NCBI GenBank assembly: GCA_016841045.1 | Contig: JAENZX010000027.1 | Span: 1 to 48,516 of the forward strand | DNA from: Thermincola carboxydiphila | GTDB lineage: Bacteria > Bacillota > Thermincolia > Thermincolales > UBA2595 | Reading direction: 5' to 3' | Length of the DNA: 48,516 nucleotides | Position numbers and translations under genes: made by a program | The notes under the pieces: model-generated | Databases searched by the model: none | The model's input: only the letters and a program-made list of their open reading frames with translations | Told to the model about the DNA's origin: nothing | Part shown: one piece after another, positions 24,896-44,576 of the stretch | Position numbering within the stretch: the stretch's first letter is position 1 | How the letters are laid out: the number at the start of each line of letters is the position of its first letter

Positions 24896-24935
24896 ATTTA
24901 TACCTCCTCAGTTTAACTCCTTGGAATTAGCCGAT

Positions 24936-27104: not shown

Positions 27105-27140
27105 ATTATAGGCCAATGTTACGGCTATTAATATGTTGAC
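27105..27140 (-). promoter_or_regulatory. Promoter of hyuAB-like operon with shared GTCAACATATT box
   Basis: On the minus strand GTCAACATATT (27140-27130), 19 bases, then TATAAT (27110-27105). The same box, spacing and -10 occur before the symporter and UbiD genes. The box covers the -35 position, where no TTGACA is present at normal spacing, as expected for an activator-dependent promoter. Confidence 0.65.
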
Positions 27141-27180
27141 ATTATCCAAAACAAAGAGCATCTTTTGAGTGTAATTAAAC

Positions 27181-27210
27181 AAAAAGCGACCGGATAAGCG
27201 GCCGCTTTTT
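27181..27210. terminator. Terminator after the ribose-type ABC operon
   Basis: AAAAAGCGaCCG / CGGcCGCTTTTT hairpin with A and T tracts on both sides. A second inverted repeat GGCTCGCAC / GTGCGAGCC at 27252-27285 lies closer to the rbsB-like stop. Confidence 0.75.
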
Positions 27211-27297
27211 CAGACTGTTGAAAAAGTCATATCATAATTCGAGCAAAAATGGGCTCGCACCTTGAAAATCAAAGTTGTGCGAGCCATTCTTAATGCG

Positions 27298-28308
27298 TTA
27301 CTTCAATTCATCAGGGTTAATATTTTTTAGAATTTCTTGATCTACCAACTTTGTTTCGTGTGCCACCGGATTAGGGGCAGTCTTACCGTTGAGAACATCG
27401 AAAACAGTCTGAATGCCCAATTGTCCCCAGCCGTAAGGTCTTAGGACAGTGGTGACGGTCATTTTACCACCCTTAACAGCTGCCAAACCTGGCGGCGTAC
27501 CATTATAGCCGGTGATTAAAATCTTATTTAACCGTCCAGCAGTTTCTACTGCTTGCAAACTACCCAAAGCCAATTCATCGTTAGCTGCATAAATGGCATC
27601 AAGTTGAGGGTTTGCAGTGAGAAAATTCTCCGTATTTTTCAATCCCTGTTCTTTGGTAATAGCAGAATTTACTTCTCCAACTATTTTGATTTCAGGATAC
27701 TTGGCAATTGCCTCTTTGAAACCTTTTTCCAGGTCCATGGTGAAGGATGCACCTGCAACTCCTTTTAACATAGCAACCTTTCCCTTGCCATTAAGTTTTT
27801 TTGCCAGCCACTCTCCTATATTACGTCCGTCTTGCACTATGTCCATACCCACATAAGTAGTCTCAATATCTTGGCGCTTCAAAGTTCTGGCGATACTGAT
27901 GACCGGTATACCTGCTTCTTTCGCAGACTCATATGCGGGAATTGCGCCTTCAAGTGTAATAGGTGAAACCAGCAGCGCATCAACCTTGGCCGTAATTAAA
28001 TCCTGAATTCCGTTATTCTGGCGTGTTTGGTCTTCATCAGCAATTACAGAACGGATATTTACGCCTAGCTCTTTAGCCTTATCTTGAATCCCCTTGTTCA
28101 TACTCACATACAAAGGATTAGTCGAACTCGCTAGAACCACACCAACGGTAAATGTTTTAGTCTTAGACTTTGTGTCCCCGGATGTCTTATTCTCAGAGGT
28201 TTTTTCACCTGGAGTTGGAGACGAGGAACATCCAATCATCAAAGTTGTAAAAAGAAACATCATTAATAGTGCCAGTCCCAAAATTTTTTTTCTTTGTGCA
28301 CTAAACAT
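27298..28308 (-). CDS. Ribose/sugar-type periplasmic-binding lipoprotein
   Basis: A 336-residue RbsB-like binding protein. The lipoprotein signal (LFTTLMIGCSSS) puts the cysteine near residue 27. The fold shows VGVVLASSTNPLYVSMNKGI, then DALLVSPITLEGAIPAYESA, IPVISIARTLKR and YAANDELALGSLQAVE, all typical of the periplasmic-binding protein 4 family. It is last in the ATPase-permease-binding protein operon. Such transporters carry sugars, purine nucleosides or autoinducers; here the catabolic neighbours suggest another small polar substrate, which is inference. Confidence 0.87.
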   Translation of the reverse strand: MFSAQRKKILGLALLMMFLFTTLMIGCSSSPTPGEKTSENKTSGDTKSKTKTFTVGVVLASSTNPLYVSMNKGIQDKAKELGVNIRSVIADEDQTRQNNGIQDLITAKVDALLVSPITLEGAIPAYESAKEAGIPVISIARTLKRQDIETTYVGMDIVQDGRNIGEWLAKKLNGKGKVAMLKGVAGASFTMDLEKGFKEAIAKYPEIKIVGEVNSAITKEQGLKNTENFLTANPQLDAIYAANDELALGSLQAVETAGRLNKILITGYNGTPPGLAAVKGGKMTVTTVLRPYGWGQLGIQTVFDVLNGKTAPNPVAHETKLVDQEILKNINPDELK

Positions 28309-28346
28309 TTTTATGCCTCCTTTATTCTCTTCATTTTAATATTTCT

Positions 28347-29348
28347 TCACCTTGTATCCTGTTTTCGAACCATCCCTATGCAGGCAGCAAGAATAAATAC
28401 ACTGCCGATAACGACCTGCTGCCAGTAATAAGGTACATTCATTAAGTTCAAACCATTTTCCAATATGCCGATAAATAATACCCCCAGAAGTGTCTGGCTC
28501 AAAAAACCCTGACCTCCGTGAAGAGAGGCCCCTCCCAAAATAACTGCGGCAATGGAGAATAGCTCCATGCCTACTCCAGCTGTAGGGTCCCCTGATCTGA
28601 GACGTGCTGCCAGCAACACCCCTGCAAGAGCAGCGGTAAAACCACAGATTACATATGTAGCAGTGATAATACGGTTAACTTTTACCCCCAAGAGACGGGC
28701 GGCTTCTTTGTTGCCACCAACGGCGTAAGTTTTGATGCCAAAAGTCGTATTGCGCAGCACTACTATGCCAATCAGGAACACAACCACAACTATGAATCCG
28801 GACACCGGGATTCCTATAATGTGTCCACTACCGAGCCAGGCAAAATGTTTAGGCAGATTAAGAACAGAGGCCCCCCCTGTAACCCCGAGTGCTACTCCCT
28901 TGGTGATGACCAACATCCCTAAGGTTGTGATAAAAGGAGATATATTCATTCGGCTAATCAAAGACCCGTTGATGAACCCTACCAATATTCCTGCTAACAG
29001 CCCTGCGGCAATGCCAGCGCCTACCCCATACCTGACCATAACTATGGCAGACAGAGATCCTGAAAGAGCAACAACAGAACCTACAGAAAGGTCAAATCCA
29101 CCACCAATAATAACAAAGGTCATTCCGGCAGAGATTATAGCCAGAATTGATATTTGTTGCAGCACATTTAGCAAGTTCCCCAAGGTAAAAAAATATTCAT
29201 TAAAAAACGTCAGCCCTGCTGCTAAGAGCAATAACATTACAGGCACCAGTAATTGACCCCAGTCTCTTTTTTTCAATTGTGTCTTTATTGTGTTTGACTC
29301 ACTTGTCATGCTATTTTGTGTTTGGTCAAGTCCAGCCAACCCGTTCAT
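28347..29348 (-). CDS. RbsC-type ABC transporter permease
   Basis: A 333-residue membrane permease with about eight to ten hydrophobic segments and the family motifs ISAGMTFVIIGGGFDLSVGS, then LLAGILVGFINGSLISRMNI, FGIKTYAVGGNKEAARLLGV and AVILGGASLHGGQG. Its first four bases overlap the ATPase gene end, so the two are translationally coupled. It would form the translocation pore with a second copy of itself. Confidence 0.88.
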   Translation of the reverse strand: MNGLAGLDQTQNSMTSESNTIKTQLKKRDWGQLLVPVMLLLLAAGLTFFNEYFFTLGNLLNVLQQISILAIISAGMTFVIIGGGFDLSVGSVVALSGSLSAIVMVRYGVGAGIAAGLLAGILVGFINGSLISRMNISPFITTLGMLVITKGVALGVTGGASVLNLPKHFAWLGSGHIIGIPVSGFIVVVVFLIGIVVLRNTTFGIKTYAVGGNKEAARLLGVKVNRIITATYVICGFTAALAGVLLAARLRSGDPTAGVGMELFSIAAVILGGASLHGGQGFLSQTLLGVLFIGILENGLNLMNVPYYWQQVVIGSVFILAACIGMVRKQDTR

Positions 29349-30877
29349 ACGCCCACCTCTATTTCTGGGGTAGAATTTGTTACGTTGTTATCTCCAAAAA
29401 CCTGATCTAAGAGTGTATTATGGGTAATATCAGACGACAACACCGCTTGACATGCTTTTCCTTTATTAAAAATTACAATTCTATCACTAACGTTAATCAC
29501 TTCCGGTAACTCGGAAGACGAGAAGATCACGGCTCCCTTCCCGTTTGCAAATTCTCTTAGCATTTTGTACACCTCTTGCTTGGCACCTATATCAATTCCG
29601 TGAGTTGGCTCGAGTAATGCCAATATTTTGGCGTTACTGGCAAGCCAACGGGCAATGATAACTTTCTGTTGGTTTCCACCACTGAGGTTTTTGACCGGCG
29701 TGCACGAGTTGGGTGTCTTAATCTTGAGGGCTTTGATCAATGGGTCAACAAGCTGCCTGCATTGTTTCCTCGATACAAATCCCCAACGACTGATCTTTTT
29801 AAGGCTGGCAATGACTATGTTTTCTTCTACCGAGAGGTTCATGAGTAATCCTTCTTTTTTGCGGTCCTCAGGTATGTAACCAATGCCATTATTAATTGCC
29901 TCATAGGGACTGCGAATGGACTTTTCACTGCCCGCTATTCTGATTTCCCCATTGCTTGCAGGTTCGTGCCCGCAAATTACCTTTAATATGTTTGAATATC
30001 CGGAACCTATAAGACCCGTAAAACTCAGAATTTCATGCCTCTTTAGTTCCAAGTTCACTGGCTCCCGGATACCTGAAGACTGGACACCTTTAACTTTGCA
30101 GATAACGTTCCCAGTTTTGAGAGATTCCCTGTTAAACGTGATTTCCATATTTCGACCGGTAATAAGCTTAACCAACTGGTTAGCGTTTAGCTCCGACCGT
30201 GTTTTCGTTCCTACTACCTGCCCATCCCGAAATACTGTAACCCGGTCTGCAATGTCAAGGACTTCATCAAGGCGGTGAGAGACAAAAACAACGCTGGTTC
30301 CCCTGACTTTCAGCTGGCGGATAATGTGGAATAGTTTTTCTACTTCGCGGGTCTCAAGGCTGGCAGTCGGTTCGTCCATAATTATTAACTTGGCTTTAGT
30401 AGCTAAAGCTTTGGCTATTTCCACCTGTTGTCGAACAGCACGACTTAGGCATTCCACGGGAATAGCGGGGTCGATATTAAAACCAAGGTCAGATAAAAGT
30501 TCTGCAGTTTTCTCGAGCAGTTGCCTGGAACGGACAAAAGGTATCCTGGCATATCTTCGGGTTGGAAGTTCGTGCAAAAAGATATTTGCGGCCACCGATA
30601 GCTGGGGGATTAGATGAAGATCCTGGAAAATCACCGATATTCCCGCTTTTAGTGCATCACTGGGATCCTTTGGTCGGAAGACCTCTTCCCGGAACAAAAT
30701 ATCACCTTCGTCAGGCTTCAGGGCGCCGGCAAGAATGTTGATCATGGTACTTTTACCCGCTCCGTTTTCCCCTACAATCGCGAGGACTTCTCCTGCCAAC
30801 AAATCGAAATTAACGTCTTTTAGGGCGGAAAGACCATAAAAGTATTTGGTGATTCCACTTACCTTGAGCAGCTTCAT
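29345..30877 (-). CDS. RbsA-type double ATPase of ABC transporter
   Basis: A 510-residue protein with two ATP-binding cassettes. The first has Walker A GENGAGKST (about residues 37-45), signature region LSRAVRQQVEIAKAL and Walker B LIIMDEPTASL. The second has a degenerate Walker A (GLIGSGYSN), signature LSGGNQQKV and an altered Walker B, LALLEPTHGID, where the usual Asp before Glu is Leu. Unequal sites are usual in this family, with the second generally hydrolytic, so the Leu is noteworthy. It is first in the operon; the ATG lies behind agaaggttgatacgtaa. Confidence 0.88.
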   Translation of the reverse strand: MKLLKVSGITKYFYGLSALKDVNFDLLAGEVLAIVGENGAGKSTMINILAGALKPDEGDILFREEVFRPKDPSDALKAGISVIFQDLHLIPQLSVAANIFLHELPTRRYARIPFVRSRQLLEKTAELLSDLGFNIDPAIPVECLSRAVRQQVEIAKALATKAKLIIMDEPTASLETREVEKLFHIIRQLKVRGTSVVFVSHRLDEVLDIADRVTVFRDGQVVGTKTRSELNANQLVKLITGRNMEITFNRESLKTGNVICKVKGVQSSGIREPVNLELKRHEILSFTGLIGSGYSNILKVICGHEPASNGEIRIAGSEKSIRSPYEAINNGIGYIPEDRKKEGLLMNLSVEENIVIASLKKISRWGFVSRKQCRQLVDPLIKALKIKTPNSCTPVKNLSGGNQQKVIIARWLASNAKILALLEPTHGIDIGAKQEVYKMLREFANGKGAVIFSSSELPEVINVSDRIVIFNKGKACQAVLSSDITHNTLLDQVFGDNNVTNSTPEIEVGV

Positions 30878-31084
30878 TTACGTATCAACCTTCTTTCAGT
30901 CGTCAATAATGGCTACCGTTTGCAACTACCGGTGCCCGCTGCAAAATTATTCAACCATTCCGTATTTCATCCGCCTTGCTGCCATTGACTTTAATAGGGA
31001 CGGCACACTATTCCACTGCTGTGGTAAGCGCCGCCATCCCTAAAATACAAAGTTCCTTCACCGTTATCAATAACCGGTCACGTG

Positions 31085-33355
31085 TTAGACTTTTAGTGCA
31101 TCCAATATCCTTTCCGGGGTCAACGGCAAGTCTTTTACCCTTACCCCAATAGCATCATAAACGGCATTGGCGATAGCGGGCGCCACCGGTACCAATGGGG
31201 CCTCACCAATCCCTTTGGCCCCGAACGGCCCGGTTTGTTCGTTGGTTTCAACTATTAAAGACTTAATCGCGGGAACATCTACTGCAGTCGGAATCTTATA
31301 ATCCAGAAGAGTGTTGCTGATAATTTTCCCGTCCTTTACTTTGAGATCTTCAAACAAAGCGTATCCCACCCCCTGGGTAAAACCGCCCTGAGACTGTCCC
31401 TCCACAGACAAAGGATTAATTGCTTTACCGACATCATGAGCAGTAAGAGCATTAACCACCCGGACCAAACCTGTTTCATGATCAACTTCAACTTCAACGG
31501 CATGAGCCCCATAGTTATACGCCCCCAGAACCCTGAAAGGAAAGCCTGTTACTTTAACATCTATGCTAAAGGGTTGTTCGTTAAACATCCATGAGTTGTT
31601 ACCGATAATCTGACCGCCTTTTACCCAGTGACTGATGACACCTAATTCTGCATAAGATATTCTTTTCTGCGGTTCGTCAACCGACACTACCACTTTGTTC
31701 CGAGCGGATAATTTGTCAGCCGGAAGCCCTAAAACCTCCGCCGCTAAATTAATCAGTTGTTGTTTTGCATCAGCTGCCGCCCGGCGCACTGCATTACCGG
31801 CCATATAAGTCAGACGAGTCGCCGTCGTCGCCCAGTTATAGGGAGTGGAATCTGTATCCTGGCTAACAACAGCCACATCTTCTATGGACAATCCCAATTC
31901 TTCGGCGGCAATTTGAGCCATAGTCGTATCGGAACCCTGACCAATATCAGCTGCCCCAACCGCTACATGTGCCGTGCCGTCTTGGTTAATTCTGACATAA
32001 GCTGAACTGGCCAAAAGACCACTCAGATGATGGACACAGGCAACTCCTCGGCCACGATTCTTGCTTTTGGGGCTCTCCCAATCCATCCCTTCTTTTATCG
32101 CCTTGAGGCATTCTTTGATGCCTACACTGAATAAATTTTGTCCACCGACAGTTTTGTCACCCGGATCCAAAGCATTTCGCAATCTGATTTCCAGGGGATC
32201 AATCCCCAACTCCCGAGAAATGATATCCAATTGCGATTCACAAGCCCAGGCAGCCTGCGGATTGCCAAACCCCCGGTAAGCTCCGGTAGCGACTTTATTG
32301 GTATAAACACAGTAACCTTCAATTTTATAGTTAGGTATCCGGTAAGGACCGTTCGCCATCAGGGATCCGAAACCAACAATGCCGGGTCCGTCATCTGCAT
32401 AAGCTCCCGTATCATAAATCAGTTTAATCTGTCTGGCTACCAGAGTGCCGTCTTTTTTTACCCCGGTTTTAACTGTAACTATGGATGAATGTCGTGGCCT
32501 GGTAGCAACCAACTCTTCTTCCCTAGTCAGGATTATCTTTACCGGACGCTTGCTAAGACGGGCCAGGGCCACACAATATGGCTGAACGGTTAGTTCAACC
32601 TTGGCCCCAAAACCTCCGCCGACCCGGGTTTGAATAACCCGTACCTTAGACATCGGCATATCCAGAGTTTCAGCGATCCTAATCTGGTTTAAATGGACTG
32701 ACTGGGTAGAAGCCCAAACCGTTACTCTTCCCTGAGCATCAATTGCGGCTATAGCTCCGTTAGTTTCGAGATGACACTGATGAGCCATAGGGGTGGTAAA
32801 GGTATCTTCAAAAACAAAATCTGCAGTTTTAAATCCCTGTTCTATATCACCATCTTCAATTGTGATTAGAGAGCAAATATTACCGTGCCGCTGAACCGGA
32901 AAAACTGCCGGGTAAGCATCGAGATTCTCATGGACAACCGGAGCATCCGATTCCATAGCTATCAACGGGTCGAGAACCTCAGACAACCGTTCATAATTTA
33001 CTTTAATTAGGCTCAAAGCCCTTTCGGCTACCTCAAGACTAACTGCGGCCACAGCAGCTACCGGTTCCCCAACATAATTAACTTTTCCCCGCGCCAGCAG
33101 GGGAGTATCCTGAACGAACGGACCATGCCTCCTGTCAGGCAGATCTTCTGCTGTAATGATCGCCTTGACCCCAGGCAGCGCCTTGGCAGCGGCTGTGTCA
33201 ATAGCAACAATCCGGGCGTGGGGGTAAGGGCTTCTTAGTAGTTTGCCATGCAGCATATTGGGGAAATTTAAATCATCAATGTATTTAGCTTGACCAGTTA
33301 CCTTTTCCTTACCTTCCAGGCGGGGAAGGTTTTGGCCGACAACAGAAAAACCCAT
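31085..33355 (-). CDS. Xanthine dehydrogenase family molybdenum-binding subunit
   Basis: A 756-residue large subunit of a three-subunit molybdenum hydroxylase. It has the N-terminal hammerhead domain (KVTGQAKYIDDLNFPNMLHG) and MoCo-binding motifs VGGGFGAKVELTVQ, GAYRGFGNPQAAWACESQLD and VAVGAADIGQGSDTTMAQIA. The end GPFGAKGIGEAPLVPVAPAI contains the catalytic Glu. It lacks the AYRCSFR cysteine loop of CO dehydrogenase, so it oxidises a carbon centre of an organic substrate (aldehyde, purine, N-heterocycle or aromatic CoA ester). It follows the small subunit by four bases. Confidence 0.9.
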   Translation of the reverse strand: MGFSVVGQNLPRLEGKEKVTGQAKYIDDLNFPNMLHGKLLRSPYPHARIVAIDTAAAKALPGVKAIITAEDLPDRRHGPFVQDTPLLARGKVNYVGEPVAAVAAVSLEVAERALSLIKVNYERLSEVLDPLIAMESDAPVVHENLDAYPAVFPVQRHGNICSLITIEDGDIEQGFKTADFVFEDTFTTPMAHQCHLETNGAIAAIDAQGRVTVWASTQSVHLNQIRIAETLDMPMSKVRVIQTRVGGGFGAKVELTVQPYCVALARLSKRPVKIILTREEELVATRPRHSSIVTVKTGVKKDGTLVARQIKLIYDTGAYADDGPGIVGFGSLMANGPYRIPNYKIEGYCVYTNKVATGAYRGFGNPQAAWACESQLDIISRELGIDPLEIRLRNALDPGDKTVGGQNLFSVGIKECLKAIKEGMDWESPKSKNRGRGVACVHHLSGLLASSAYVRINQDGTAHVAVGAADIGQGSDTTMAQIAAEELGLSIEDVAVVSQDTDSTPYNWATTATRLTYMAGNAVRRAAADAKQQLINLAAEVLGLPADKLSARNKVVVSVDEPQKRISYAELGVISHWVKGGQIIGNNSWMFNEQPFSIDVKVTGFPFRVLGAYNYGAHAVEVEVDHETGLVRVVNALTAHDVGKAINPLSVEGQSQGGFTQGVGYALFEDLKVKDGKIISNTLLDYKIPTAVDVPAIKSLIVETNEQTGPFGAKGIGEAPLVPVAPAIANAVYDAIGVRVKDLPLTPERILDALKV

Positions 33356-33359
33356 GATT

Positions 33360-33836
33360 TCAACTCCTCCCTTCTAACAAATTAGCCGCATATTTGATTG
33401 CTTCAACTATTTTTGTATAACCCGTACAGCGGCACAGGTTACCGGCAATGCTATCTCTGATTTCCGCTTCTGTGGGTTGGGGATTTATATCAAGAATTGC
33501 TTTGGCCGATAGCAACATTCCGGGGGTACAATAACCACACTGCACAGCACCGACTTTTAAAAAAGCCTCCTGAAGCGGATGTAATTGTTCGGGATCACCC
33601 AGCCCTTCAATCGTTAGTACCTCCTGCCCATTAATTTTGCCCATTGGGGTCAGGCAAGAGTTAATAGGCTTACCGGCAATTAATACCGTACAAGCCCCGC
33701 AATCCCCTTCATCGCACCCTTTTTTGGTTCCTGTAAGTCCCAGATCTTCCCGCAACACGTCCAATAGGGTTCGGCTGGGGTCAACATTAAGAGATACATG
33801 TTCACCGTTAAGAATAAATCTTATTTCCTGTTTCAT
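33360..33836 (-). CDS. Molybdenum hydroxylase [2Fe-2S] subunit
   Basis: A 158-residue iron-sulfur subunit. The plant-type cluster ligands are in GCDEGDCGACTVLIAG (residues about 40-55) with a fourth Cys in INSCL. The second cluster ligands are in CGYCTPGMLLS and GNLCRCTGYTKIV. It passes electrons from molybdopterin to FAD. Its start overlaps the end of the FAD subunit gene by four bases, and its stop precedes the large subunit by four bases. Confidence 0.93.
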   Translation of the reverse strand: MKQEIRFILNGEHVSLNVDPSRTLLDVLREDLGLTGTKKGCDEGDCGACTVLIAGKPINSCLTPMGKINGQEVLTIEGLGDPEQLHPLQEAFLKVGAVQCGYCTPGMLLSAKAILDINPQPTEAEIRDSIAGNLCRCTGYTKIVEAIKYAANLLEGRS

Positions 33837-34705
33837 TTATTACTCCCCTCCGCTCTTCTCCAAGCTGTTTCCAGAACCCGACGAGTAATAACCTCGACCA
33901 TTTGGCGACGATAGTCGGCTGAAGCGCGAATATCACTAATCGGCCTGACTTCCTCTGCCGCTATCCTGCCTGCCTCAGCCAGCACTTCTCGAGTTAGTTC
34001 CGCTCCGATTACTGCCTGCTCTGCCTGAAAGGCCCGAACCGGTGTAGGTGCCACGGCACCCATTGCAATCCGGCATATAGTGCATTTGCCGGCGCTGTCT
34101 AACCTGACATATGCGGCAACCCCTACCACAGCAGTATCCATTGCCCGCCGGGGACTTAATTTGATATAGGCGCTGCCAGATCGGGCTGGCTCTGCCGGAA
34201 GACTTAGTTTGGTAACCAATTCGCCGGGAGCCAGGCTATTTTTACCCGGCCCGGCAAAAAAGTCTTTGATAGCAATCTCTCTGCTATCCCGGCAGCTGAC
34301 AGCCGTGACTTTGGCCTCGTAAACCAGCAAAGCCGGTGCTGTTTCAGCCGAAGGAGAAGCATTGCAAATATTACCAACTACAGTAGCAAGGTTACGTACT
34401 TGCCTGGAACCTAACTGGCCGGCCCCTTCTTTCAACGCTGTATATTTTTGGGCAACAATCGGATGACGGACAATTTCGTTTTGGGTTATTGCTGCTCCGA
34501 TAATTAAATCTTGATTATCCTCGTTTAAAATCCTGAGATCATCTATCCCGGTAATATCCATTACCTTGCTAACATGGATTGCTTTGTGCTTTATTTTTAC
34601 CAGTAAATCTGTACCACCGGCTAGAACATTCATTTGTGGACCATGTTCAAACAATAATGATACAGCTTCCTCGACACTGCCTGGTCTAAAATATTCAAAT
34701 CCCAT
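33833..34705 (-). CDS. Molybdenum hydroxylase FAD-binding subunit
   Basis: A 290-residue FAD subunit of the CoxM/HcrB/XdhB type. FAD motifs are VLAGGTDLLVKIKH (about residues 30-43) and TVVGNICNASPSAETAPALL. It lacks the extra 4Fe-4S insertion of 4-hydroxybenzoyl-CoA reductase beta subunits, which argues against that enzyme. The open frame begins at 34768, but taggagg lies eight bases before the ATG at 34705, which starts the normal MGFEYFRPGSVEEAV. It is first of the three hydroxylase genes, 52 bases after the symporter. Confidence 0.9.
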   Translation of the reverse strand: MGFEYFRPGSVEEAVSLLFEHGPQMNVLAGGTDLLVKIKHKAIHVSKVMDITGIDDLRILNEDNQDLIIGAAITQNEIVRHPIVAQKYTALKEGAGQLGSRQVRNLATVVGNICNASPSAETAPALLVYEAKVTAVSCRDSREIAIKDFFAGPGKNSLAPGELVTKLSLPAEPARSGSAYIKLSPRRAMDTAVVGVAAYVRLDSAGKCTICRIAMGAVAPTPVRAFQAEQAVIGAELTREVLAEAGRIAAEEVRPISDIRASADYRRQMVEVITRRVLETAWRRAEGSNK

Positions 34706-34757
34706 ATCAATCCTCCTAACCAAATTCTTTATTTTGATGTTCTTTTGGGGAAAATTT

Positions 34758-36752
34758 CTAAACGTCAAGCGGCAAAGTTCCCGCCGGCCACCCTTTAGCA
34801 GAAAAGTTCCCGCCGACCACCCCTTTTAGAAACTCCCTTCCTTTAGGCGTTATTTGTAAACGGCGCCTAAACAAGCCGCTATCAGTTAAGTACCCTTGCC
34901 GATGTAAACCCGTAAGTACTGGAACTACATCCAGCGGTGCCATACCTAAGGAAAGAGCAATATCTTCTGTAACAAATTTATCTTGCTTAGAAGCAGCTTG
35001 CAGAGCTTGCAATCCCCGATTGTCCATACCTTGTTCCAAAATTTCTTGTTGATCCGGAATTGTTTCATGTAATTTCTTGCGTCCCAGCTCAGTTAGCATA
35101 AAGGTATAAAATTTGGCACCGAAAAAACCTTCACGGATTATGCATCCATGTCGTTCCATCGTTTCCACATAAGCATTTACGAGCTGCCCATCCAACTGTG
35201 TCGTATCAATAAAATCACTGAACCGGTTAGCACCTATAGCTATCGCATTAAGAATGCCGATTTCCTTAGGATGTAATTCGCGGTCGTTTAAATAATTCGC
35301 AGCCTCAGGTTTATATTGTTTGGCTATGGCGTAATACTTAGGTTTTGTAACCAAACTGATGACAACAGCAACTACTAAGGACACACCTACAGCAATCCAA
35401 ACTTGATGGGCTATTGCAACCAGCGCCGGTGTAAAACCCCAAACCGATGTGGCGATTAGCCCGGTAATTGCAGCAGTAAATGCGGCAGTCGAAGTCATAC
35501 GTGGCCAAAAAGCCGCTAAAGAAACCAAAGTACTTGAAATTCCTATAAAAGATAAAAACATTCCCATCAGAAAGGTAACATCCCCTATAAAAATTGAAAT
35601 GAGCCCGGTTACAACAATAAACGCGGCCGTCCATAGTCGGGTAGGAAACAACATTTCTTTCGGAGTGGCCTGGGGTTTAAATAAACGCTGATGAATGTCC
35701 CTGGAAACAGTAGCCACTCCACCCATTCCGGCAGTGGTGTAGGTTGATATAGTGGCAGCGAGCATAGCTAAAATAAGCAGTATGCCCAAAACCGGGGGAA
35801 GTACCGATGCCAATACCCCAATCGCCCCAGCCGGGTGAATGTTGCCGCCAAAATTAAGAAAAACTTCGGGTTTAATTGCAAGTGCGTATAAAGCGACCCG
35901 GGGCATGAAATAGACCATCAGGACCAAGCCTAAAACTCCAGCGACGATAAAACCATTCCGGGCCGCCCGGTCACTCCGTGGGGCAACCGAACGCAGCCAA
36001 TAATACGGGCTACCGAAAATCAGAGTAAAAATCCACATAAAAGCCCAGGTTATATAACTATTTCCACGTAAAGAGAAGTCAAAATGGCCCGGAAAAGTTA
36101 GACGCCAGCCGGGTTCCGGAATTCTAGTCTGCAGCCAGTCAAAACTACCATAAGTAGCCATTAGATATACTAAGACTATGGGTATTACCACATAACCAAA
36201 AAGAGTCTGAGCCAAATCAGTAACAGTGACCGACCACATCCCGCCAAAGATCATGATAATGCCAATCACCAAAAGCATGGATATTACAGAAAAGGTAACC
36301 GGCCATCCGGCAAAACCCAATAACATCTGGGCCATCCCAGTAACTCCCGCCGCCGCTACAAGGATTACCGCCAGAGTAAGCACAACGGCCATTACTATCC
36401 GCGTCCCTAGATTGAATCTGAGTTCGTACCATTCCCCAATAGTGAATGTACCAATGCTGCGAATCATTTTCGTAAATAATAGACCGTAAATAATCCAGCC
36501 GATATACACAGTCCCTAAGCATAATGCCGCATAATAACCAAATTGAACGGCGAATATTGAATACATTGACGTAATATCGGACGCAAAACCAATCGCTAAA
36601 ATCCCTGACGTAGTAATAAAGAAACTTAATTCACGGGTTGCAATTAAATAATCTTCACTATGGTTAACCCACTTACTGGTTTTAAAACTCAGGTATGCCA
36701 ATACCAGATAAAATAAAATTATTAATAATGTTAAACCAACTCCGATAGTCAA
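34758..36752 (-). CDS. Sodium:solute symporter with C-terminal winged-helix tail
   Basis: SSS-family permease. About 12-13 membrane helices fill residues 5-500 (ITSMYSIFAVQFGYYAAL, AGMGGVATVSRDIHQRLF). A cytoplasmic tail of about 150 residues follows, with two winged-helix-like modules (YVETMERHGCIIREGFFGAK ... LTELGRKKLHE, and EDIALSLGMAPLDVVPVLTG ... ITPKGREFLKG). Such tails are unusual for the family and could sense substrate or bind nucleic acid. The frame opens at a GTG (36785) lying too close to its ribosome site; the TTG at 36752 follows ggggag at good spacing. It heads the hydroxylase operon, so it likely imports that enzyme's substrate. Confidence 0.82.
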   Translation of the reverse strand: MTIGVGLTLLIILFYLVLAYLSFKTSKWVNHSEDYLIATRELSFFITTSGILAIGFASDITSMYSIFAVQFGYYAALCLGTVYIGWIIYGLLFTKMIRSIGTFTIGEWYELRFNLGTRIVMAVVLTLAVILVAAAGVTGMAQMLLGFAGWPVTFSVISMLLVIGIIMIFGGMWSVTVTDLAQTLFGYVVIPIVLVYLMATYGSFDWLQTRIPEPGWRLTFPGHFDFSLRGNSYITWAFMWIFTLIFGSPYYWLRSVAPRSDRAARNGFIVAGVLGLVLMVYFMPRVALYALAIKPEVFLNFGGNIHPAGAIGVLASVLPPVLGILLILAMLAATISTYTTAGMGGVATVSRDIHQRLFKPQATPKEMLFPTRLWTAAFIVVTGLISIFIGDVTFLMGMFLSFIGISSTLVSLAAFWPRMTSTAAFTAAITGLIATSVWGFTPALVAIAHQVWIAVGVSLVVAVVISLVTKPKYYAIAKQYKPEAANYLNDRELHPKEIGILNAIAIGANRFSDFIDTTQLDGQLVNAYVETMERHGCIIREGFFGAKFYTFMLTELGRKKLHETIPDQQEILEQGMDNRGLQALQAASKQDKFVTEDIALSLGMAPLDVVPVLTGLHRQGYLTDSGLFRRRLQITPKGREFLKGVVGGNFSAKGWPAGTLPLDV
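34777..34827. repeat. Short tandem duplication at the symporter 3' end
   Basis: GTTCCCGCCGGCCACCC and GTTCCCGCCGACCACCC recur 30 bases apart, differing at one base. They encode a repeated VVGGNFS / PAGTL region at the protein end. Confidence 0.55.
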
Positions 36753-36759
36753 GTCATCA

Positions 36760-36985
36760 TCTCCCCTTTCTTCCTTTATTACCACTCCTGCTTAATCTTT
36801 AGGATTTCTGATTAAAAACGAGATGTCGTAATACGCTAACTCACTCTTATCAATAACCCCCACCACCCTTACATTTATTATTAAAATTATAAGCCGTCCG
36901 TCATTAACTGAATATGTTGACTGTCACCAAATCCACTGGAGACGATTTAGTTGTTAAATACATAATTAAAGGAATAACCTAAAAT
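36760..36985 (-). promoter_or_regulatory. Promoter region of symporter-hydroxylase operon (duplicated segment, copy 1)
   Basis: On the minus strand: a palindrome CTAAATC-N10-GATTTGG (36950-36927), then GTCAACATATT (36921-36911), 19 bases, and TATAAT (36891-36886). The whole segment is closely similar to 40080-40300 before the ubiD-like gene. The palindrome is a candidate operator and the box at -35 a candidate activator site. The rest of 36786-37162 has no gene; a hairpin at 37031-37081 is listed separately. Confidence 0.65.
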
Positions 36986-37030
36986 GGTAAGGTTCTATGA
37001 TAAATGATTGGGGTGGCAGGAAAAATAAAA

Positions 37031-37081
37031 GCATTTGGTAGACAAACTAATCCTTCAATGAAGGAGGTATTCACCAAATGC
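37031..37081 (-). terminator. Long hairpin after the MFS gene
   Basis: GCATTTGGT (37031-37039) pairs with ACCAAATGC (37073-37081), and an inner CCTTC/GAAGG hairpin sits in the loop. On the minus strand TTTTATTTTT follows. It is placed 82 bases after the MFS stop codon. Confidence 0.6.
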
Positions 37082-37162
37082 ATCTTGGAATCTTAATTTA
37101 ATTAAACAATGTTTGTATTAACGATATTCAGCAGTTTAAGATTACTCTGAAATCTATTTATC

Positions 37163-38479
37163 TTAAATCCTTTTTCCTTTTGTTTCTTTTATAAACAAAA
37201 TTATTATAATCACACTAATTACTGCTGGGGCCGCAAACACAGATAAAGTAGCATTAAAACCTAAGCCTATTTGCTGCACGTAACCTGCGACTAGAGGCCC
37301 GACTATTGAACCGACACGGCCTAATCCCTGAGCCCATGAAACACCGGAATTGCGGAATTCAGTTGGGTATGTCTCAACAAGTAACGGTTGTAATCCAGCC
37401 ATCGAAAAATTCATTGTAGCACCAACTAACATACCAAAAACGACAATTGCCCATTGATTTACAGCATTTCCAAGTAAAAAAAGAAATACGGCAGTAAGAG
37501 CAAAAAAGTAAGCTTCACTTTTCCTGCGGCCTATTTTATCTGCAATAAAACCACTTAGAAAACATCCAATAATTCCGGCAAAATTTTGGGATATTGAAAA
37601 TGAATAACTTTTTACCACTGAATACCCCTTTTGAAGTAGAAGTGTGGGCAACCATCCGGAAACTCCATAGGCTATCATCAAGCCACAGAAATATAAAATT
37701 GAAAGATTCAAAGTTGCAGAAAAATATTCCTTTGAAAATAAAGCGCGAATACCAACAGTTTGTGGGGGAGACGGAGCAATTAAACTATCAGCATCCCACT
37801 CCCGCGCCACGCCTTTAGCAGATCTTTCGATAGACTGTATAACCTTGACAACTTCTGTTTCACGACCTTTGCTCAGCAGCCAACGTGGAGATTCCGGCAT
37901 GTATTTTGCTAATACTATTGCATAGAGGCAAGGTAAAATTCCGATAAGGTAAATTAATCTCCACCCCATTGCGGGAACAACTGCCATGGCTATGATTCCG
38001 GCCAAAATCCAGCCGCCAATCAAAAATCCAGATAAAGCAGTTACAAAAAAACCTCTGTTTTTTGTGGGCGCAAATTCAGACATCAACGTAACTCCAACAG
38101 GGATGGCAGCGCCATAACCAACGCCGGACAAGATTCGCAGTATCGCGTATGTCGTAAAGTTCGGTGCAAAATATGTTAATCCAGAAAATATTGAATAAAC
38201 CAAACAGGCTGCAATCATCATCTTTTTTCTACCTATTCTATCTGAAAGAGAACCTGCAATTATTGCTCCCAAAATCGAACCCACAAACCCCCACGAAACA
38301 AGTGAGCCGGTTTGTACTTTTGTTAAAGCCCATTCTTTGGCAATCTGAGGCATAGTATATGGAACAACCATATTGTCGAACCCATCTAAGAGATGGGCAA
38401 AACCAATAAGAAAAAATATAATCCACGTATACTTTGTGACACCTATCTCATCAATAATGTCAGAGATATAATTTTTCAC
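37163..38479 (-). CDS. MFS transporter, aromatic acid:H+ symporter-like
   Basis: A 438-residue major facilitator protein with 12 membrane segments. The loop 2-3 motif is GSLSDRIGRKKMMIAACLVY and the loop 8-9 copy is GFIADKIGRRKSEAYFF. DGFDNMVVPYTMPQIAKEW in helix 1 resembles AAHS transporters (PcaK, BenK), where the Asp is needed for transport. The open frame extends to 38542, but cagggaggcg lies just upstream of a GTG at 38479, which I take as the start. It lies between the symporter and UbiD genes with its own leader. Confidence 0.87.
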   Translation of the reverse strand: MKNYISDIIDEIGVTKYTWIIFFLIGFAHLLDGFDNMVVPYTMPQIAKEWALTKVQTGSLVSWGFVGSILGAIIAGSLSDRIGRKKMMIAACLVYSIFSGLTYFAPNFTTYAILRILSGVGYGAAIPVGVTLMSEFAPTKNRGFFVTALSGFLIGGWILAGIIAMAVVPAMGWRLIYLIGILPCLYAIVLAKYMPESPRWLLSKGRETEVVKVIQSIERSAKGVAREWDADSLIAPSPPQTVGIRALFSKEYFSATLNLSILYFCGLMIAYGVSGWLPTLLLQKGYSVVKSYSFSISQNFAGIIGCFLSGFIADKIGRRKSEAYFFALTAVFLFLLGNAVNQWAIVVFGMLVGATMNFSMAGLQPLLVETYPTEFRNSGVSWAQGLGRVGSIVGPLVAGYVQQIGLGFNATLSVFAAPAVISVIIIILFIKETKGKRI

Positions 38480-38575
38480 TAATTTCGCCTCCCTGTGTTT
38501 TTTTAAACTAAAGTATACAGTACTATGCCTTATTAAACCCAATCCGTTTTAAAAAGAGAATACTGTCGAAGTTTA

Positions 38576-38610
38576 GCCGTACGTGAATATATAACCCTAA
38601 TCCGTACGGC
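38576..38610. promoter_or_regulatory. Inverted repeat GCCGTACG between ubiD-like and MFS genes
   Basis: GCCGTACG (38576-38583) and CGTACGGC (38603-38610) form a perfect 8-base inverted repeat separated by 19 AT-rich bases. It is upstream of the MFS gene, so it may be an operator. It has no T tract, so a terminator is less likely. Confidence 0.45.
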
Positions 38611-38617
38611 AAGCCTC

Positions 38618-38648
38618 ATGAAAAAAATCGGTTTTTCTCCGTGGATTT
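38618..38648 (-). terminator. Terminator after the ubiD-like gene
   Basis: AAAAAATC / GATTTTTT arms around CGG/CCG on the minus strand, ending in seven T residues, directly after the ubiD-like stop. Confidence 0.6.
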
Positions 38649-38649
38649 T

Positions 38650-40077
38650 TTACTTTGACCTTACGACTTGTTTTACCAGATGAGGGTAGTCTTTTTTGAT
38701 TTTGGCAAGTTGTTCGGTATCATAAACGGTCTGAGGAACCTCGTTGCCCCAGAATTCATAATCTTCTTTCGGCACTGTTGCATCTATTCCTAGTCCGGAC
38801 TGATATCCTTTTCCAGTTAGCGGGCTGGCAGGGTCAAGCCACTGCCCTGCTCTTCTGGAAGTTATTGTAACATCCCGGTCAGCCATTACCCGAGTTGATA
38901 AAGCCCAGTGGACAGACTCATAATCCCAGATATTCACATCTTCGTCAACCACAATTACATGTTTATACCTACTATAAGTAGAACCCCAAATAGCATCGAT
39001 TACCTGTTGCGGATGCCCTTTGAACAATTTCTTAATTTTGACAATTGCTTCATAACACTTGTTGCAGCGCAAATCAATTATTCCAGGAACGATCGATTTA
39101 AGAGTTTTGTAAGCTTCCGCCTGGCTGGTAGTACCGTTAATATACGCGCTTTCGGTAAGTTCCCATTGTTCACGGGTTCCCTGGAAAATAGCATTTTTCC
39201 GATGAGTAATATGTTTTATTACCACCTCTGGCAGCATTCTTTCTTCTCCATAATGTCCGGTATATTCCCCAAACCATTCGGTAACTTCCTGGCGCTGCTG
39301 ACGCGGATAAATATAGCCCTCAAAAACCCATTCAGCAGTAGCTGGTACATAGATATCAATTGTCTGGCATTTAACCATCTCCAATGGTTCCCGCCTTAAA
39401 GCCCCGGCTAATTCGAATTCATCAACGTCGGGTGGAGTACGGGTTGCCCCAACCATCAGAGTTATCGGATCAACACCCGTGACAATAGCGATTGGCATTG
39501 GTTTGTTAGCTTCTTCATATTGGAATAAATGTTGACGACCGTGGGTATACTCCGGCGCTCCCCAAGAAACACTCTTGGACGGATTATCAAAATTCTCGCC
39601 ACGATAAATGCCGGCATTCTGTTTGCCAGTATATAAATCTTTGGTAATCGATAGACCAAGGGTTACGGAAAAAGGTGACTTATCCTTGTCATGCCAGATA
39701 ATATTGCATATTTTATTAATATCAATATCTTTTTCTTCGATAACACATTCCTGGCACGGAGCATCCGCGACAATCTTGGGTGGAATGAGTTTTTCAGTCC
39801 TACGGCACCATTCTTCATTAAATTGATCCATCCGATCAATACCCAACGCCCATAATAAACGGTCCTGGGTAGCAATTGTTCCTGCTACGCACGGGACATC
39901 TGTCCCCTTAATATTTTCGAATACAACTGCGGGGCTCCCGCTGTATAAAGAAATTGCTGTCAATCCACCGGCAACCTTCGGATCAACTTCATCATAAACA
40001 TGAACAAGTTCACCTTTTTCCTCAAGAAAAGCCATAAATTCTCTCATATCATACCAATTTGATTTCCCCATATACAC
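38650..40077 (-). CDS. UbiD family decarboxylase
   Basis: A 475-residue UbiD-family enzyme, which reversibly (de)carboxylates aromatic or alpha,beta-unsaturated acids with prenylated FMN. Visible motifs are SGSPAVVFENIKG (about residues 45-57), NAGIYRGENFDNPSKSVSWG, and DIYVPATAEWVFEGYIYP, whose EWVFEG equals the conserved E-I-V-x-E-G containing a catalytic Glu. The ATG start at 40068 (MGKSNW) or 40077 follows ggggaggtag. No UbiX cofactor synthase is in the window. The neighbours suggest an aromatic acid substrate. Confidence 0.92.
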   Translation of the reverse strand: MYMGKSNWYDMREFMAFLEEKGELVHVYDEVDPKVAGGLTAISLYSGSPAVVFENIKGTDVPCVAGTIATQDRLLWALGIDRMDQFNEEWCRRTEKLIPPKIVADAPCQECVIEEKDIDINKICNIIWHDKDKSPFSVTLGLSITKDLYTGKQNAGIYRGENFDNPSKSVSWGAPEYTHGRQHLFQYEEANKPMPIAIVTGVDPITLMVGATRTPPDVDEFELAGALRREPLEMVKCQTIDIYVPATAEWVFEGYIYPRQQRQEVTEWFGEYTGHYGEERMLPEVVIKHITHRKNAIFQGTREQWELTESAYINGTTSQAEAYKTLKSIVPGIIDLRCNKCYEAIVKIKKLFKGHPQQVIDAIWGSTYSRYKHVIVVDEDVNIWDYESVHWALSTRVMADRDVTITSRRAGQWLDPASPLTGKGYQSGLGIDATVPKEDYEFWGNEVPQTVYDTEQLAKIKKDYPHLVKQVVRSK

Positions 40078-40079
40078 TA

Positions 40080-40300
40080 CCTCCCCTTTCTCTGTTACCA
40101 GTCCTGCTTACCTTTAGGATTTTTCTGATCAAAAATGAGATGTCTTTATACGCTAATTCACTCCTATCAATAAACCTCACCATCCTTACATTTATTATTA
40201 AAATTATAAGCCGTCCGGCAGTAGATGAATATGTTGACTGTCACCAAATCCATTGGAGACGATTTGGTTTTTAAATACATAATTAAAGGAACTAACCTAG
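40080..40300 (-). promoter_or_regulatory. Promoter region of ubiD-like gene (duplicated segment, copy 2)
   Basis: On the minus strand: a perfect palindrome CCAAATC-N10-GATTTGG (40267-40244), GTCAACATATT (40238-40228), 19 bases, then TATAAT (40208-40203). It is closely similar over about 200 bases to 36760-36985. Differences between the copies avoid the palindrome arms, the box and the -10, which suggests selection on these parts. Confidence 0.65.
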
Positions 40301-40308
40301 AAAGCAAA

Positions 40309-40343
40309 AAGCGAACAATTACTATCAATGCAAGTGTTCGCTT
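40309..40343 (-). terminator. Terminator after the PucR-type regulator gene
   Basis: AAGCGAACA / TGTTCGCTT hairpin with TTTTTGCTTT following on the minus strand. Confidence 0.8.
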
Positions 40344-40373
40344 CGTTTTTTCAATATACAATTGTTTAAATTT

Positions 40374-43256
40374 TTATTGTAATAAATCCTTAATTTTTAA
40401 AGCCATCTGCACATTTAACCGTTCTTCTGCATTGCCCAAGTCTATTCCGGTTATTTCATGAATCCTCCGCAACCGGTAGTTTAAAGTATTAATATGCAAG
40501 TACGCCGATCTAGAAGTTTTTTGGAGGTTACAATTATTAACTATAAATGCCTCAAGAGTCGTTAATAATACTGTGCCGTTCTTCTGGTCATAAGACACTA
40601 ATTTACCAAGGATCCTGTGGAAATAAGCTTCAAGTTGTTCTTTACTCTCGATTTGAAATAATAAGCCGTAGACCCCGATTTCACCAAAATTCATCAATAC
40701 ATTTCTCTTATCAAACTTGTTCATTATTTTTAAAACAAGCATTGCTTCCCGATAGGAATTTTGAAAGTCTTTAAGCTGCCTGGTAACAGTTCCAATCCCC
40801 ATAGATATTGTAATTTCAGCTAAAGTTTCTGTGATTTTTGCCTTTAATCGGTGGGCCAGATCATTAGGGTTGAGATAGTTTCTGGAACTATTTTTTGGTG
40901 GAACAGCATCGGCAATAATGACAATTTTATCACTTTTACTTATCACGATACTCCGGGGAGACCGGTCCATTACCGTGTTATTTACCAAATTAAACAATGA
41001 TTTTTTCACCTGGGCAACTTTTTTCTCATTTCCAGACTGTTGCTTGACGAAATCACTAAAATTATCAATGTCAAGAATAATAACCTGATAAGGTAAATTA
41101 ATGTCATAACCCAGAAAAGTAGCCCGCATTAAAATTTCTTCATCTGATTTAAAGTGACCGTTTAATAAATCATCAACCCAATCACCTTTGAGCTTGGATG
41201 TCACCTCATCAGCTATCTTTTGTTTCATCATTTCCAAAGCATAAACTGTAGCAGCATGTTCAATCGCCACATAGTCAAGCTCTTCCAATTCATGAGAAGA
41301 CCGGGCAATTGAAACATAACCCAGGGTCTTGTGTCCAACTAAAATCGGGGATATTACCTGGGGTCGAGGAATAATGCAATCGGAGTCTGATGGTAAATCC
41401 ATTGGACGTCGCTCTTTTTCTAATTGTTTAAAGAATTCCTTAATACGAGGATTATTAACAAATTGTGGCGGAAACAACTTGTGATTTTTTTCAAAATCTA
41501 ATTTCTCATTAATTCCGAACTGGGCCGAATGCAGCAAGCGACAGAATTTATCCGTCACCGCAACAGAGGCTTTAAGTAAATCAGCCAATGTTTGCGTTAT
41601 AGCTTCAATACCCTTATCCTCCAGAACCATCTTGGTAAGTTGCTGGTGAATTGAAGACGAACGTTTAAGAAGAGCATGCTGAGATTCAATTAATTGATTA
41701 AACTCTTTGAGTTTGGCAACTGTTTTCAGTTCTTGTTCGTATAAACGGGCATTTTCAATGGCTACACCCGCTTGACGTGAAAAACGACATAATAGTTCAA
41801 TTTCCCCAGTCAAAAAAGGAACTGCATTAAGGCGCCAAACATAAAGGACCCCGACCACAGTATCAGCATTTTGTAATGGAACCGCTACTAAAGTTTTAAA
41901 TCCCTTAGACCGGGTTTTTAAATCTAATTCATCTAAATCATATCGGTTATTACGGTCTTCTCCGGCATTCCAAATAACCGGCTTTTTGGTATTGTTAACT
42001 TCAGCGGTTATTCCTCGATTTACATCAATTACCAGCCCACGGAACTCATTGAATTTATCACTTGCCGTAGCAGCCATTACTCCCTTTCTGTGTTGGTTAT
42101 CAAATAAACTTATCCCAGTCATATCACAGCGAAGTAAATTTCGAACTTTCTGAACAACTGAATTTAAAATCTGTTCCAAACTCACCAATGAGGATATCTC
42201 TGTCGCGACCTGATAAAGAGCGATGGATTCCATTTGCTTCTTCTGTACCTCATCAAACAAACAAGCATTTTTAATTACCATTGACAATTGTGACCCTAAT
42301 ACCGTTAGCAGTTGAACATCATCTTGAGTAAAGCAGCCATTTTTTTTATTAATGACCTGCAGAACTCCAATACCCTGCCCTTCAGAAACCAATGGAACAA
42401 CCAACATGCTACGAACCCCATATAACCGGCAATAATATTGATTAACCCGCGAGTCTGTACGAAAGTCGTTACAAATATATGGCTCACCCTGTAAAAAAAC
42501 CTCAACAGCCAAACCGCCTTCCTTTAAAGTCGGATGACAGACGGCGATTATCTCTTTATCGGTAATCCCGAAAGAAGGCTTTTGCAATGCTAACTCCTGG
42601 GTTTCTGGGTTATAAAGCTGAAAACCACCACTTTCAACATCCAATAAATCCCCTAAAACTGATATGATTTGAGCTAATACATCTTCAAGCCTCGGCTTGG
42701 AAGCTAACACCCTGCCAATCTTTATCAGGGCGTTAAAGTCTTTGCTCATTTTTTTCAGCTGGACTTGTCTTAGCTGTTTTTCAATAACCAAATTTATTGT
42801 TTTATCCAGGTTAAGTAATTCATCCCGCAAAGTGTCTAAACGGAGCACTTTATTTCCCAGAATGATAAATCCATAAACTTCACCGGAATCTTTTTGCAAT
42901 CTGCTGACAGTGGTCCATTGGAATTTTTCAGCACTAACCATCTCTAAAAGTTCGTTGCCCATTTGACTTTTAATTTTAGTCTCATTGCCAAACTTATCAA
43001 TAACGCGGTGAATTTGCGGAAAAAGCTTGTCTGGCGAGATAATTTCGGCCCCCTTCTGGGAACAGCAATATATCTTTAAGTTGTTTACAGTCCTATCCTC
43101 GTAAAGAATAATTACACAGATATCAACCCTCATCACAAGCCGGTTCGATTCCATGATCCCCAGGATCTCATCCTCGATCTTGTCATAAGACGAATTTGCA
43201 TTTGTCAGAAACGTATCATTTTCGGGTAATATTGTTTCAATTTCCCTTTGCCCCAC
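40374..43256 (-). CDS. GAF-domain PucR/CdaR-type transcriptional regulator
   Basis: A 960-residue regulator. Residues about 180-330 and 350-510 are GAF domains (GGFQLYNPETQELALQKPSF; VPLVSEGQGIGVLQVINKKN; VPLQNADTVVGVLYVWRLNA). A central region about 560-830 includes a degenerate GGDEF-like CdaR module. The last 60 residues are a PucR-type helix-turn-helix (LHINTLNYRLRRIHEITGID). The family activates or represses catabolic operons on binding small ligands. As the only regulator in the island, it is the best candidate for the shared promoter box. The start is GTG behind gggaggtagc. Confidence 0.87.
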   Translation of the reverse strand: MGQREIETILPENDTFLTNANSSYDKIEDEILGIMESNRLVMRVDICVIILYEDRTVNNLKIYCCSQKGAEIISPDKLFPQIHRVIDKFGNETKIKSQMGNELLEMVSAEKFQWTTVSRLQKDSGEVYGFIILGNKVLRLDTLRDELLNLDKTINLVIEKQLRQVQLKKMSKDFNALIKIGRVLASKPRLEDVLAQIISVLGDLLDVESGGFQLYNPETQELALQKPSFGITDKEIIAVCHPTLKEGGLAVEVFLQGEPYICNDFRTDSRVNQYYCRLYGVRSMLVVPLVSEGQGIGVLQVINKKNGCFTQDDVQLLTVLGSQLSMVIKNACLFDEVQKKQMESIALYQVATEISSLVSLEQILNSVVQKVRNLLRCDMTGISLFDNQHRKGVMAATASDKFNEFRGLVIDVNRGITAEVNNTKKPVIWNAGEDRNNRYDLDELDLKTRSKGFKTLVAVPLQNADTVVGVLYVWRLNAVPFLTGEIELLCRFSRQAGVAIENARLYEQELKTVAKLKEFNQLIESQHALLKRSSSIHQQLTKMVLEDKGIEAITQTLADLLKASVAVTDKFCRLLHSAQFGINEKLDFEKNHKLFPPQFVNNPRIKEFFKQLEKERRPMDLPSDSDCIIPRPQVISPILVGHKTLGYVSIARSSHELEELDYVAIEHAATVYALEMMKQKIADEVTSKLKGDWVDDLLNGHFKSDEEILMRATFLGYDINLPYQVIILDIDNFSDFVKQQSGNEKKVAQVKKSLFNLVNNTVMDRSPRSIVISKSDKIVIIADAVPPKNSSRNYLNPNDLAHRLKAKITETLAEITISMGIGTVTRQLKDFQNSYREAMLVLKIMNKFDKRNVLMNFGEIGVYGLLFQIESKEQLEAYFHRILGKLVSYDQKNGTVLLTTLEAFIVNNCNLQKTSRSAYLHINTLNYRLRRIHEITGIDLGNAEERLNVQMALKIKDLLQ

Positions 43257-43655
43257 CTGTCGCTACCTCCCAGTTCTCATTTTTCCATATACTGGCCGCC
43301 TAAAGTTAGCATTATGGGTAATCCAAATACCCCTGAAAAAACGCTTTTAAAATTAAACCCGCCCCGGGTATAAAATATTAAGATCCGGCGGGTAATAAGT
43401 TACCACTCGGATTGCGGTAATTACGATAAGCATTGACCATCTTATTCAAATTTTAATATTGTGCCGGAAATTTTATAAGAGGATGTCTGTGAAATGACAT
43501 AATATGGCTCTAAACGGTTTCAAATAGAGGTAACACTCCCTGCTGCTGCCCGAATCAATTGTCAATTGAGTTTGTCCCCCTATAAACCAAAAAAAGCAGC
43601 CCCTGGCTGCACCCTCATATTTCATCTTTCCCTTTTCACTACCCACTACCTACTA
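43257..43655. other. Intergenic region between PucR-type gene and murA remnant
   Basis: No gene is recognised. It holds the murA terminator (43596-43610) and a heptanucleotide repeat (43637-43660). There is no copy of the GTCAACATATT box, so the regulator gene does not appear to share the promoter type of its presumed targets. Confidence 0.5.
43596..43610 (-). terminator. Terminator of murA (copy B)
   Basis: GCAGCC-CCT-GGCTGC hairpin followed on the minus strand by seven T residues. Confidence 0.85.
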
Positions 43656-43660
43656 CTATA
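43637..43660. repeat. Heptanucleotide tandem repeat (ACTACYY)n
   Basis: CACTACC, CACTACC, TACTACT units ending at the murA stop codon. It is related, in opposite orientation, to 2166-2197. Confidence 0.6.
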
Positions 43661-44576
43661 CTCCATTCACCCTCATAATTCTTGCTCCAAGGGCTACATA
43701 TTTTCTCTCAATATTTTCATATCCCCGGTCAATATGTGATACATTCTCTATTACAGTTGCATCTTCTGCCACCAGTCCGGCCAGCACCAGTGCGGCTCCG
43801 GCCCTCAAATCGGTTGCCTCTACAAAGGTGCCGCTTAGTTTGGGTATCCCTTTGACGATAGCCGCCCGGCCTTCTATTTTGATATTAGCACCCATACGGC
43901 GCAATTCATCTACGTGCTGGTACCTGTTCTCAAACACTGCTTCAGAGATAACTCCTGTTCCATCAGCAACAGTCATCAGAGCCATCATCTGTGCCTGCAT
44001 ATCTGTCGGAAATCCGGGGTATGGCAAGGTCCTCAGGTCTACGGCCTTAACCCGCTGGGGGCCTATAACCCTTACCTGATCTTCTCCTACCTGAACAGTT
44101 ACTCCGGCTTCCACAAGCTTGGCAATAACGGCTTCGACATGTTCAGGGATAACATTCTCAACTATCACATCCCCACCTGTTATAGCTGCTGCAACCATGT
44201 GCGTTCCAGCCTCTATACGGTCGGGTATAACTGTATGTTTAACCGAACCTAACGGAGTGGGGCCTTCTATCTTAATGACGTCAGTGCCCGCACCTCTGAT
44301 TTTCGCTCCCATACCATTTAAGAAATTCTGCAGGTCAACTATCTCAGGCTCTTTGGCGGCATTTCTGATTATCGTCTGCCCTTTAGCCTGAGTCGCTGCC
44401 ATCATCAGGTTCTCCGTTGCGCCGACACTGGGAAAATCAAGGTGAATCACATCACCTTTCAGCCCCTCAGTTTCCGCCAGGACGTACCCATGTTTCTCAG
44501 TAATCCGTGCCCCCAGTTGGATAAAACCTTTAAGGTGCAGGTCCATCGGTCGGGAACCGATAGCACACCCACCTGG
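43656..44576 (-). pseudogene. murA: murA 3' portion, interrupted before the catalytic cysteine (direct repeat copy B)
   Basis: UDP-N-acetylglucosamine 1-carboxyvinyltransferase, the first committed step of peptidoglycan synthesis, missing its first 110 or so residues. Homology begins at [17 protein letters not shown], where the Cys (codon 44565-44567) matches the PEP-binding Cys115 of E. coli MurA. The C-terminal part is normal to RIMRVNGV. The murA frame is open up to a stop at 44595-44597. No start codon lies before the Met after GSRP, so any product made here would lack the cysteine. The 3' 302 bases are repeated at 18851-19152. The missing 5' part should lie beyond the window, past the recombinase-bearing insertion. 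Confidence 0.93.

Follow-up and report, generated by a model that had tools for sequence, protein, structure and literature searches.

Regulators of the PucR type are nearly all activators, and the sites of GabR lie directly upstream of the -35 hexamer (PMC7652997). According to the same source, the inverted repeats of activators of this type span 21 bp for GabR, 24 bp for AdeR, and 17 bp for PutR, and the PucR protein of Bacillus subtilis, which acts in purine catabolism, is both an activator and a repressor, with a site described there as not palindromic (PMC7652997). A candidate system of this type is found in a catabolic island of Thermincola carboxydiphila. The window, i.e., the whole stretch of 48,516 nucleotides that was analysed, is one entire contig (C29) of a genome of 4.16 Mb in 75 contigs.

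The island contains three catabolic units, all on the minus strand. Unit 1 (37163-40077) codes for a UbiD-family decarboxylase and an aromatic-acid-type MFS transporter. Unit 2 (27298-36785) codes for an SSF symporter, a three-subunit molybdenum hydroxylase, and a sugar-type ABC importer with its binding protein. Unit 3 (19606-26990) codes for a HyuA/HyuB-like ATP-dependent pair of the caprolactamase/acetophenone carboxylase superfamily, a PaaK-like CoA ligase, a thiolase, and a DUF35/BbsA-like partner. Terminator-type hairpins on the minus strand follow the regulator gene (40300-40352, 5′ of the ubiD-like promoter), the MFS gene (37020-37085, 5′ of the symporter promoter), and the binding-protein gene (27181-27210, between the transporter unit and the hyuA unit), so the three catabolic units are separate.

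The initial annotation had proposed that the promoters of these units share a box at a fixed distance from TATAAT, and this is exactly what is found. The motif GTCAACATATT-N19-TATAAT occurs at 27105-27140, 36886-36921, and 40203-40238, always on the minus strand, in the direction of the genes downstream (3/3), and with exactly 19 bases between the two elements; its expectation is 0 (100 shuffles of the window). The -10 hexamers are at 27105-27110 (hyuA unit), 36886-36891 (symporter/hydroxylase unit), and 40203-40208 (ubiD-like unit), which places the predicted transcription starts, set 7 bases after the -10, near 27098, 36879, and 40196. Alignment on the -10 reveals that the 11-mer is a portion of a longer element common to the three promoters, TTTGGNNANNGTCAACATATTNA-N17-TATAAT, since the box is extended in register by TTTGG and an A upstream and by an A downstream. 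For two unrelated upstream regions of 60 bp, the probability of an 11-base run in the same register is ~3e-5 (simulation with this composition).

The box forms the right half of an imperfect inverted repeat of 21 bp, ATTTGGTGAC-A-GTCAACATAT, in the promoters of the symporter and ubiD units (predicted operators at 36912-36932 and 40229-40249, minus strand). The halves of this repeat are complementary at 8/10 positions, and its centre is the best-scoring one in each region. By chance, an 8/10 repeat is expected in 0.065% of cases at a fixed centre and in 3% over any of 40 centres. The predicted operator of the hyuA unit (27131-27151, minus strand) reads TTTTGGATAA-T-GTCAACATAT, with an intact right half and a degenerate left half, complementary at 4/10 positions around the same centre. 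Compared with the 17-24 bp inverted repeats of PucR-type activators, the picture is thus mixed, with 8/10 complementarity over 21 bp in two promoters and 4/10 in the third. The PucR box of B. subtilis does not fit the site. Counted from the predicted start, the site occupies -53 to -33 in all three promoters and is centred at -43, and on that prediction it lies where the operator of a PucR-type activator is found, at the -35 or directly upstream of it. The -35 hexamers themselves are poor, with 1-3/6 matches at spacings of 16-18 bp; at 17 bases they read TATTCA, TATTCA, and TATTAA (2-3/6 relative to TTGACA), and direct reading of the three promoters finds no extended -10. Poor -35 hexamers are expected of activator-dependent promoters.

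The distribution of the site is very restricted. The genome-wide search for the box with N19-TATAAT, which the initial annotation had suggested as a check, returns exactly three sites in 4.16 Mb, and none with one or two mismatches. Allowing three mismatches adds 32 sites, each with exactly three, which makes 35 in all versus 28 for the reversed control. The bare 11-mer has six copies in the genome; the other three lack TATAAT at that spacing, and by eye their surroundings seem to be coding. When up to three mismatches are allowed, the whole promoter element has two chance-level matches among 397 further genomes from the phylum, versus one for the control, and viral contigs have no match. Two near misses were considered and discarded: a 3-mismatch match in genome G011, directly before a small unrelated reading frame and at the control level, and an operator-like sequence at C55:273115, which is at the start of a reading frame and was taken as chance. 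The regulon is private to this genome as far as sampled. All three catabolic units have the site and no other place in the genome has it with 0-2 mismatches, as one would expect of a regulon and its nonmembers. Coding-strand TATAAT occurs exactly once per catabolic unit (three in total in the intergenic gaps examined), each time with an operator. The proposal of a regulon of three units is therefore well supported at the sequence level, by a site unique to them, by one TATAAT and one site per gap, and by the hairpins that separate them. Because the same site is at the same distance in all three and absent elsewhere in the genome and in the 397 relatives, the three units are probably switched on together by one local regulatory protein.

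The protein that had been put forward for this role, a GAF/PucR protein of 960 residues (40374-43256, minus strand), is the best candidate, as it has the sole transcription-factor DNA-binding domain among the island proteins scanned and as the 21-bp inverted repeat in two of the promoters is of the sort used by other activators of the PucR type (PMC7652997). It contains, in order, two GAF domains, a CodY-type GAF domain, a GGDEF-like domain (PF17853, residues 700-844, E = 2.2e-17), and the PucR helix-turn-helix (PF13556, HTH_30, residues 897-955, E = 8.9e-22), the latter two above the cut-offs. Classical PucR members have the N-terminal domain PF07905. This domain has no match in the 960-residue protein, which has the GAF domains instead, and by its domain composition the protein is a PucR-type C-terminus joined to another sensor rather than a classical PucR. 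It contains no AAA+ domain of the kind found in sigma-54 enhancer-dependent systems. Of the named families, that of the activator AdeR scores best with its C-terminal part, although the 114 bits obtained are below the cut-off of 700. The region upstream of the regulator gene has neither the operator nor a coding-strand TATAAT. At least two further PucR-type regulators are present in the genome, on contigs C49 and C55. The one on C49 is 36% identical to the island regulator and adjoins a UbiX-like gene, upstream of which (L035 1094-1358) there is a 21-bp inverted repeat, ATTTGGCCAAATTGGTCAAAT, complementary at 9/10 positions. This repeat has only the outer ATTTG in common with the island operator and is a weak but suggestive parallel to it; possibly it is a second operator of this regulator class. 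No close ortholog of the island regulator is found in the genome collection of the species or in 398 genomes of the phylum. The latter contain one relative at 40% identity, which lies beside a mutase/CoA-transferase cluster and lacks the box, and the plasmid matches are at most ~25% identical.

The three sites are not three independent instances. The symporter and ubiD promoters lie within one duplication of 227 bp, 87% identical, that includes upstream sequence, operator, -10, and leader (cassette copies at 36761-36984 and 40081-40302, minus strand) and has no further copies elsewhere in the genome; hence, the sites at 36.9 and 40.2 kb count once and there are only two independent instances. 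Between the two copies, none of the 28 positions in operator and -10 has changed versus 24 of 161 elsewhere (P ~0.01). The hyuA region is 41%-42% identical to the other two outside the box and -10, versus 28% in shifted controls (~2.5 standard deviations), an excess partly due to TTTGG, and its promoter may have an old common origin with theirs. One could then take the box as a mark of descent instead of an operator, a single cassette having been copied to the three units, long ago in the case of hyuA. Two of the copies plainly stem from one duplication, and the excess of similarity around the hyuA site goes in the same direction, but descent alone gives no account of a diverged hyuA spacer beside an intact box and -10, which selection does. 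The 19-base spacer is at background (5-6/19 identical), with 11/11 bases of the box and 6/6 bases of the -10 kept, and this points to selection on the site. We regard common descent without function as unlikely. The earlier statement that the match is not just the result of duplication holds only partly, given the duplicate status of two of the three promoters and the mild similarity of the third.

Other readings accept the site as functional and differ in what uses it. A regulator encoded elsewhere, either another PucR paralog or an unrelated activator, could bind a real operator; this would agree with the lack of an autoregulatory site before the island regulator and with the paralogs on C49 and C55, the former with its UbiX-like gene and repeat. 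However, the site is confined to an island that has its own regulator, and the C49 repeat shares no more than the outer ATTTG, so that such an arrangement seems rather improbable. It is less probable still that the site is a repressor operator, at which the same island protein or another would obstruct RNA polymerase at -53 to -33 as long as substrate is absent. The overlap of the site with the -35 region would allow it, and B. subtilis PucR is both activator and repressor (PMC7652997), but no recognisable -35 is present in any of the three promoters, and such weakness fits activation and not the repression of a strong promoter. Finally, GTCAACA could be the -35 element of an alternative sigma factor, as its distance to the -10 is fixed. 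Yet the -10, TATAAT, is perfect for sigma-A, the 24 bases between GTCAAC and this hexamer are too many for a -35/-10 pair, and there are just three sites in 4.16 Mb, which makes this very improbable. By inspection, the GG/GC spacing of sigma-54 is absent from the promoters.

The most probable reading, and we hold it with reasonable though not full confidence, is that an island-encoded activator, likely the GAF/PucR protein, drives a closed regulon of three units from an operator of ~21-24 bp in a class-II-like manner. The box would be the conserved promoter-proximal half of the operator for one such activator, which as a dimer or higher oligomer would bind at ~-53 to -33, in the place of the missing -35 hexamer, and recruit sigma-A RNA polymerase to a promoter whose -10 is perfect but which is otherwise incomplete. 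As inducer, the GAF domains of the regulator would bind a substrate or an intermediate of the pathway, and the likeliest activator, the 960-residue protein, is encoded beside the ubiD-like unit. The closed regulon would then comprise uptake, hydroxylation, decarboxylation, ATP-dependent attack on a lactam or ketone, CoA ligation, and thiolysis. More tentatively, the island may assemble its regulon through copies of a promoter cassette: the 227-bp module of operator, -10, and leader would have been duplicated before a second operon, which thereby came under the control of a private GAF-GAF-CodY-GAF-PucR activator whose operator specificity is new, and regulator and cassette may travel together as a self-contained switch. 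In the leaders, the cassette copies have in part a common open frame (36746-36879 and 40070-40196; VIDKSELAYYDISFLIR and FIDRSELAYKDISFLIR), which lacks a good start site and may be the remnant of a decayed gene or a leader peptide; by eye, its substitutions are without clear codon bias, and the leader peptide was set aside. The leaders have no Rfam match and fold no better than shuffled sequences.

The three units probably serve the anaerobic breakdown of an aromatic compound or an N-heterocycle, judging from gene content. The UbiD protein scores above the cut-off of its family, the MFS protein resembles aromatic-acid symporters, and the DUF35 partner is similar to BbsA. Scores with the models of CapA/CapB (caprolactamase) and Apc (acetophenone carboxylase) are obtained for the HyuA/B pair, and with those of 4-hydroxybenzoyl-CoA reductase and xanthine dehydrogenase for the molybdenum subunit, in both cases below the cut-offs. 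A plausible route for an aromatic ketone or acid, or for an N-heterocycle, would consist of hydroxylation, carboxylation or ring opening, CoA activation, and thiolysis. The gene clusters of acetophenone carboxylase and caprolactamase resemble unit 3 in the HyuA/HyuB-like pair, which is followed by a ligase and a thiolase in the manner of benzoylacetate-type pathways; acetophenone carboxylase clusters differ in their full set of Apc subunits, which is absent here. UbiD and HyuA have no matches at strict cut-offs in the phylum sample, and two Rhodospirillaceae UbiD loci match at 57%.

The surroundings of the units bear possible traces of insertion. A direct repeat of 313 bp (99%) of the murA 3′ end, at 18840-19152 and 43645-43957, flanks the catabolic island of 24.5 kb, with diverged terminators beyond the repeats; this fits insertion of the island by recombination within murA. 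The stretch between the repeats contains no recognised integrase gene. murA itself is split after PGGC, the active-site Cys motif (44547-44584 and C4:26762-27088), with an N-terminal piece on contig C4 and a C-terminal piece on the present contig that directly adjoins a large serine recombinase (44585-46264). The two junctions have GGTGGGTGTG in common, seemingly the crossover core at which a site-specific insertion into murA took place, and full-length genes of the EPSP-synthase family are present elsewhere in the genome. In the region noted at 4262-18539, ftsZ, a ftsQ-like gene, a spoIIGA-like gene, and two sporulation-type sigma genes are on one side, with murA on the other and a multihaem cytochrome and other genes in between, an arrangement that suggests an insertion hotspot in the division/cell-wall cluster. 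Two tandem repeats of 29 bp (86%) are found at 34768-34825, at the 3′ end of the symporter gene, by its overlap with the hydroxylase gene.

The putative operator is concrete and cheaply testable, and it concerns a large and little-characterised class of GAF-PucR regulators. It also joins the UbiD-like protein, the molybdenum hydroxylase, and the HyuAB-ligase-thiolase set in a single probable anaerobic pathway and thereby narrows the search for the substrate, in a regulon built partly through promoter duplication. Among described systems, the closest is GabR of Corynebacterium glutamicum at the gabTDP promoter, also an activator with a PucR-type helix-turn-helix, 21-bp repeats directly upstream of the -35, and a local catabolic regulon (PMC7652997). 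GabR is divergently encoded, lacks the GGDEF-like domain, and has both of its two sites in the same promoter, whereas here there is one site in each of three promoters and a large GAF-containing candidate. AdeR and PutR of B. subtilis are likewise PucR-type activators acting on inverted repeats, of 24 and 17 bp (PMC7652997), but the candidate is below the AdeR cut-off, has three GAF-type domains, and is found in another pathway context. B. subtilis PucR is a regulator of the same type and differs by its site, described as non-palindromic (PMC7652997). In conclusion, the local regulon is new, the kind of system is already known, and its mechanism is ordinary.
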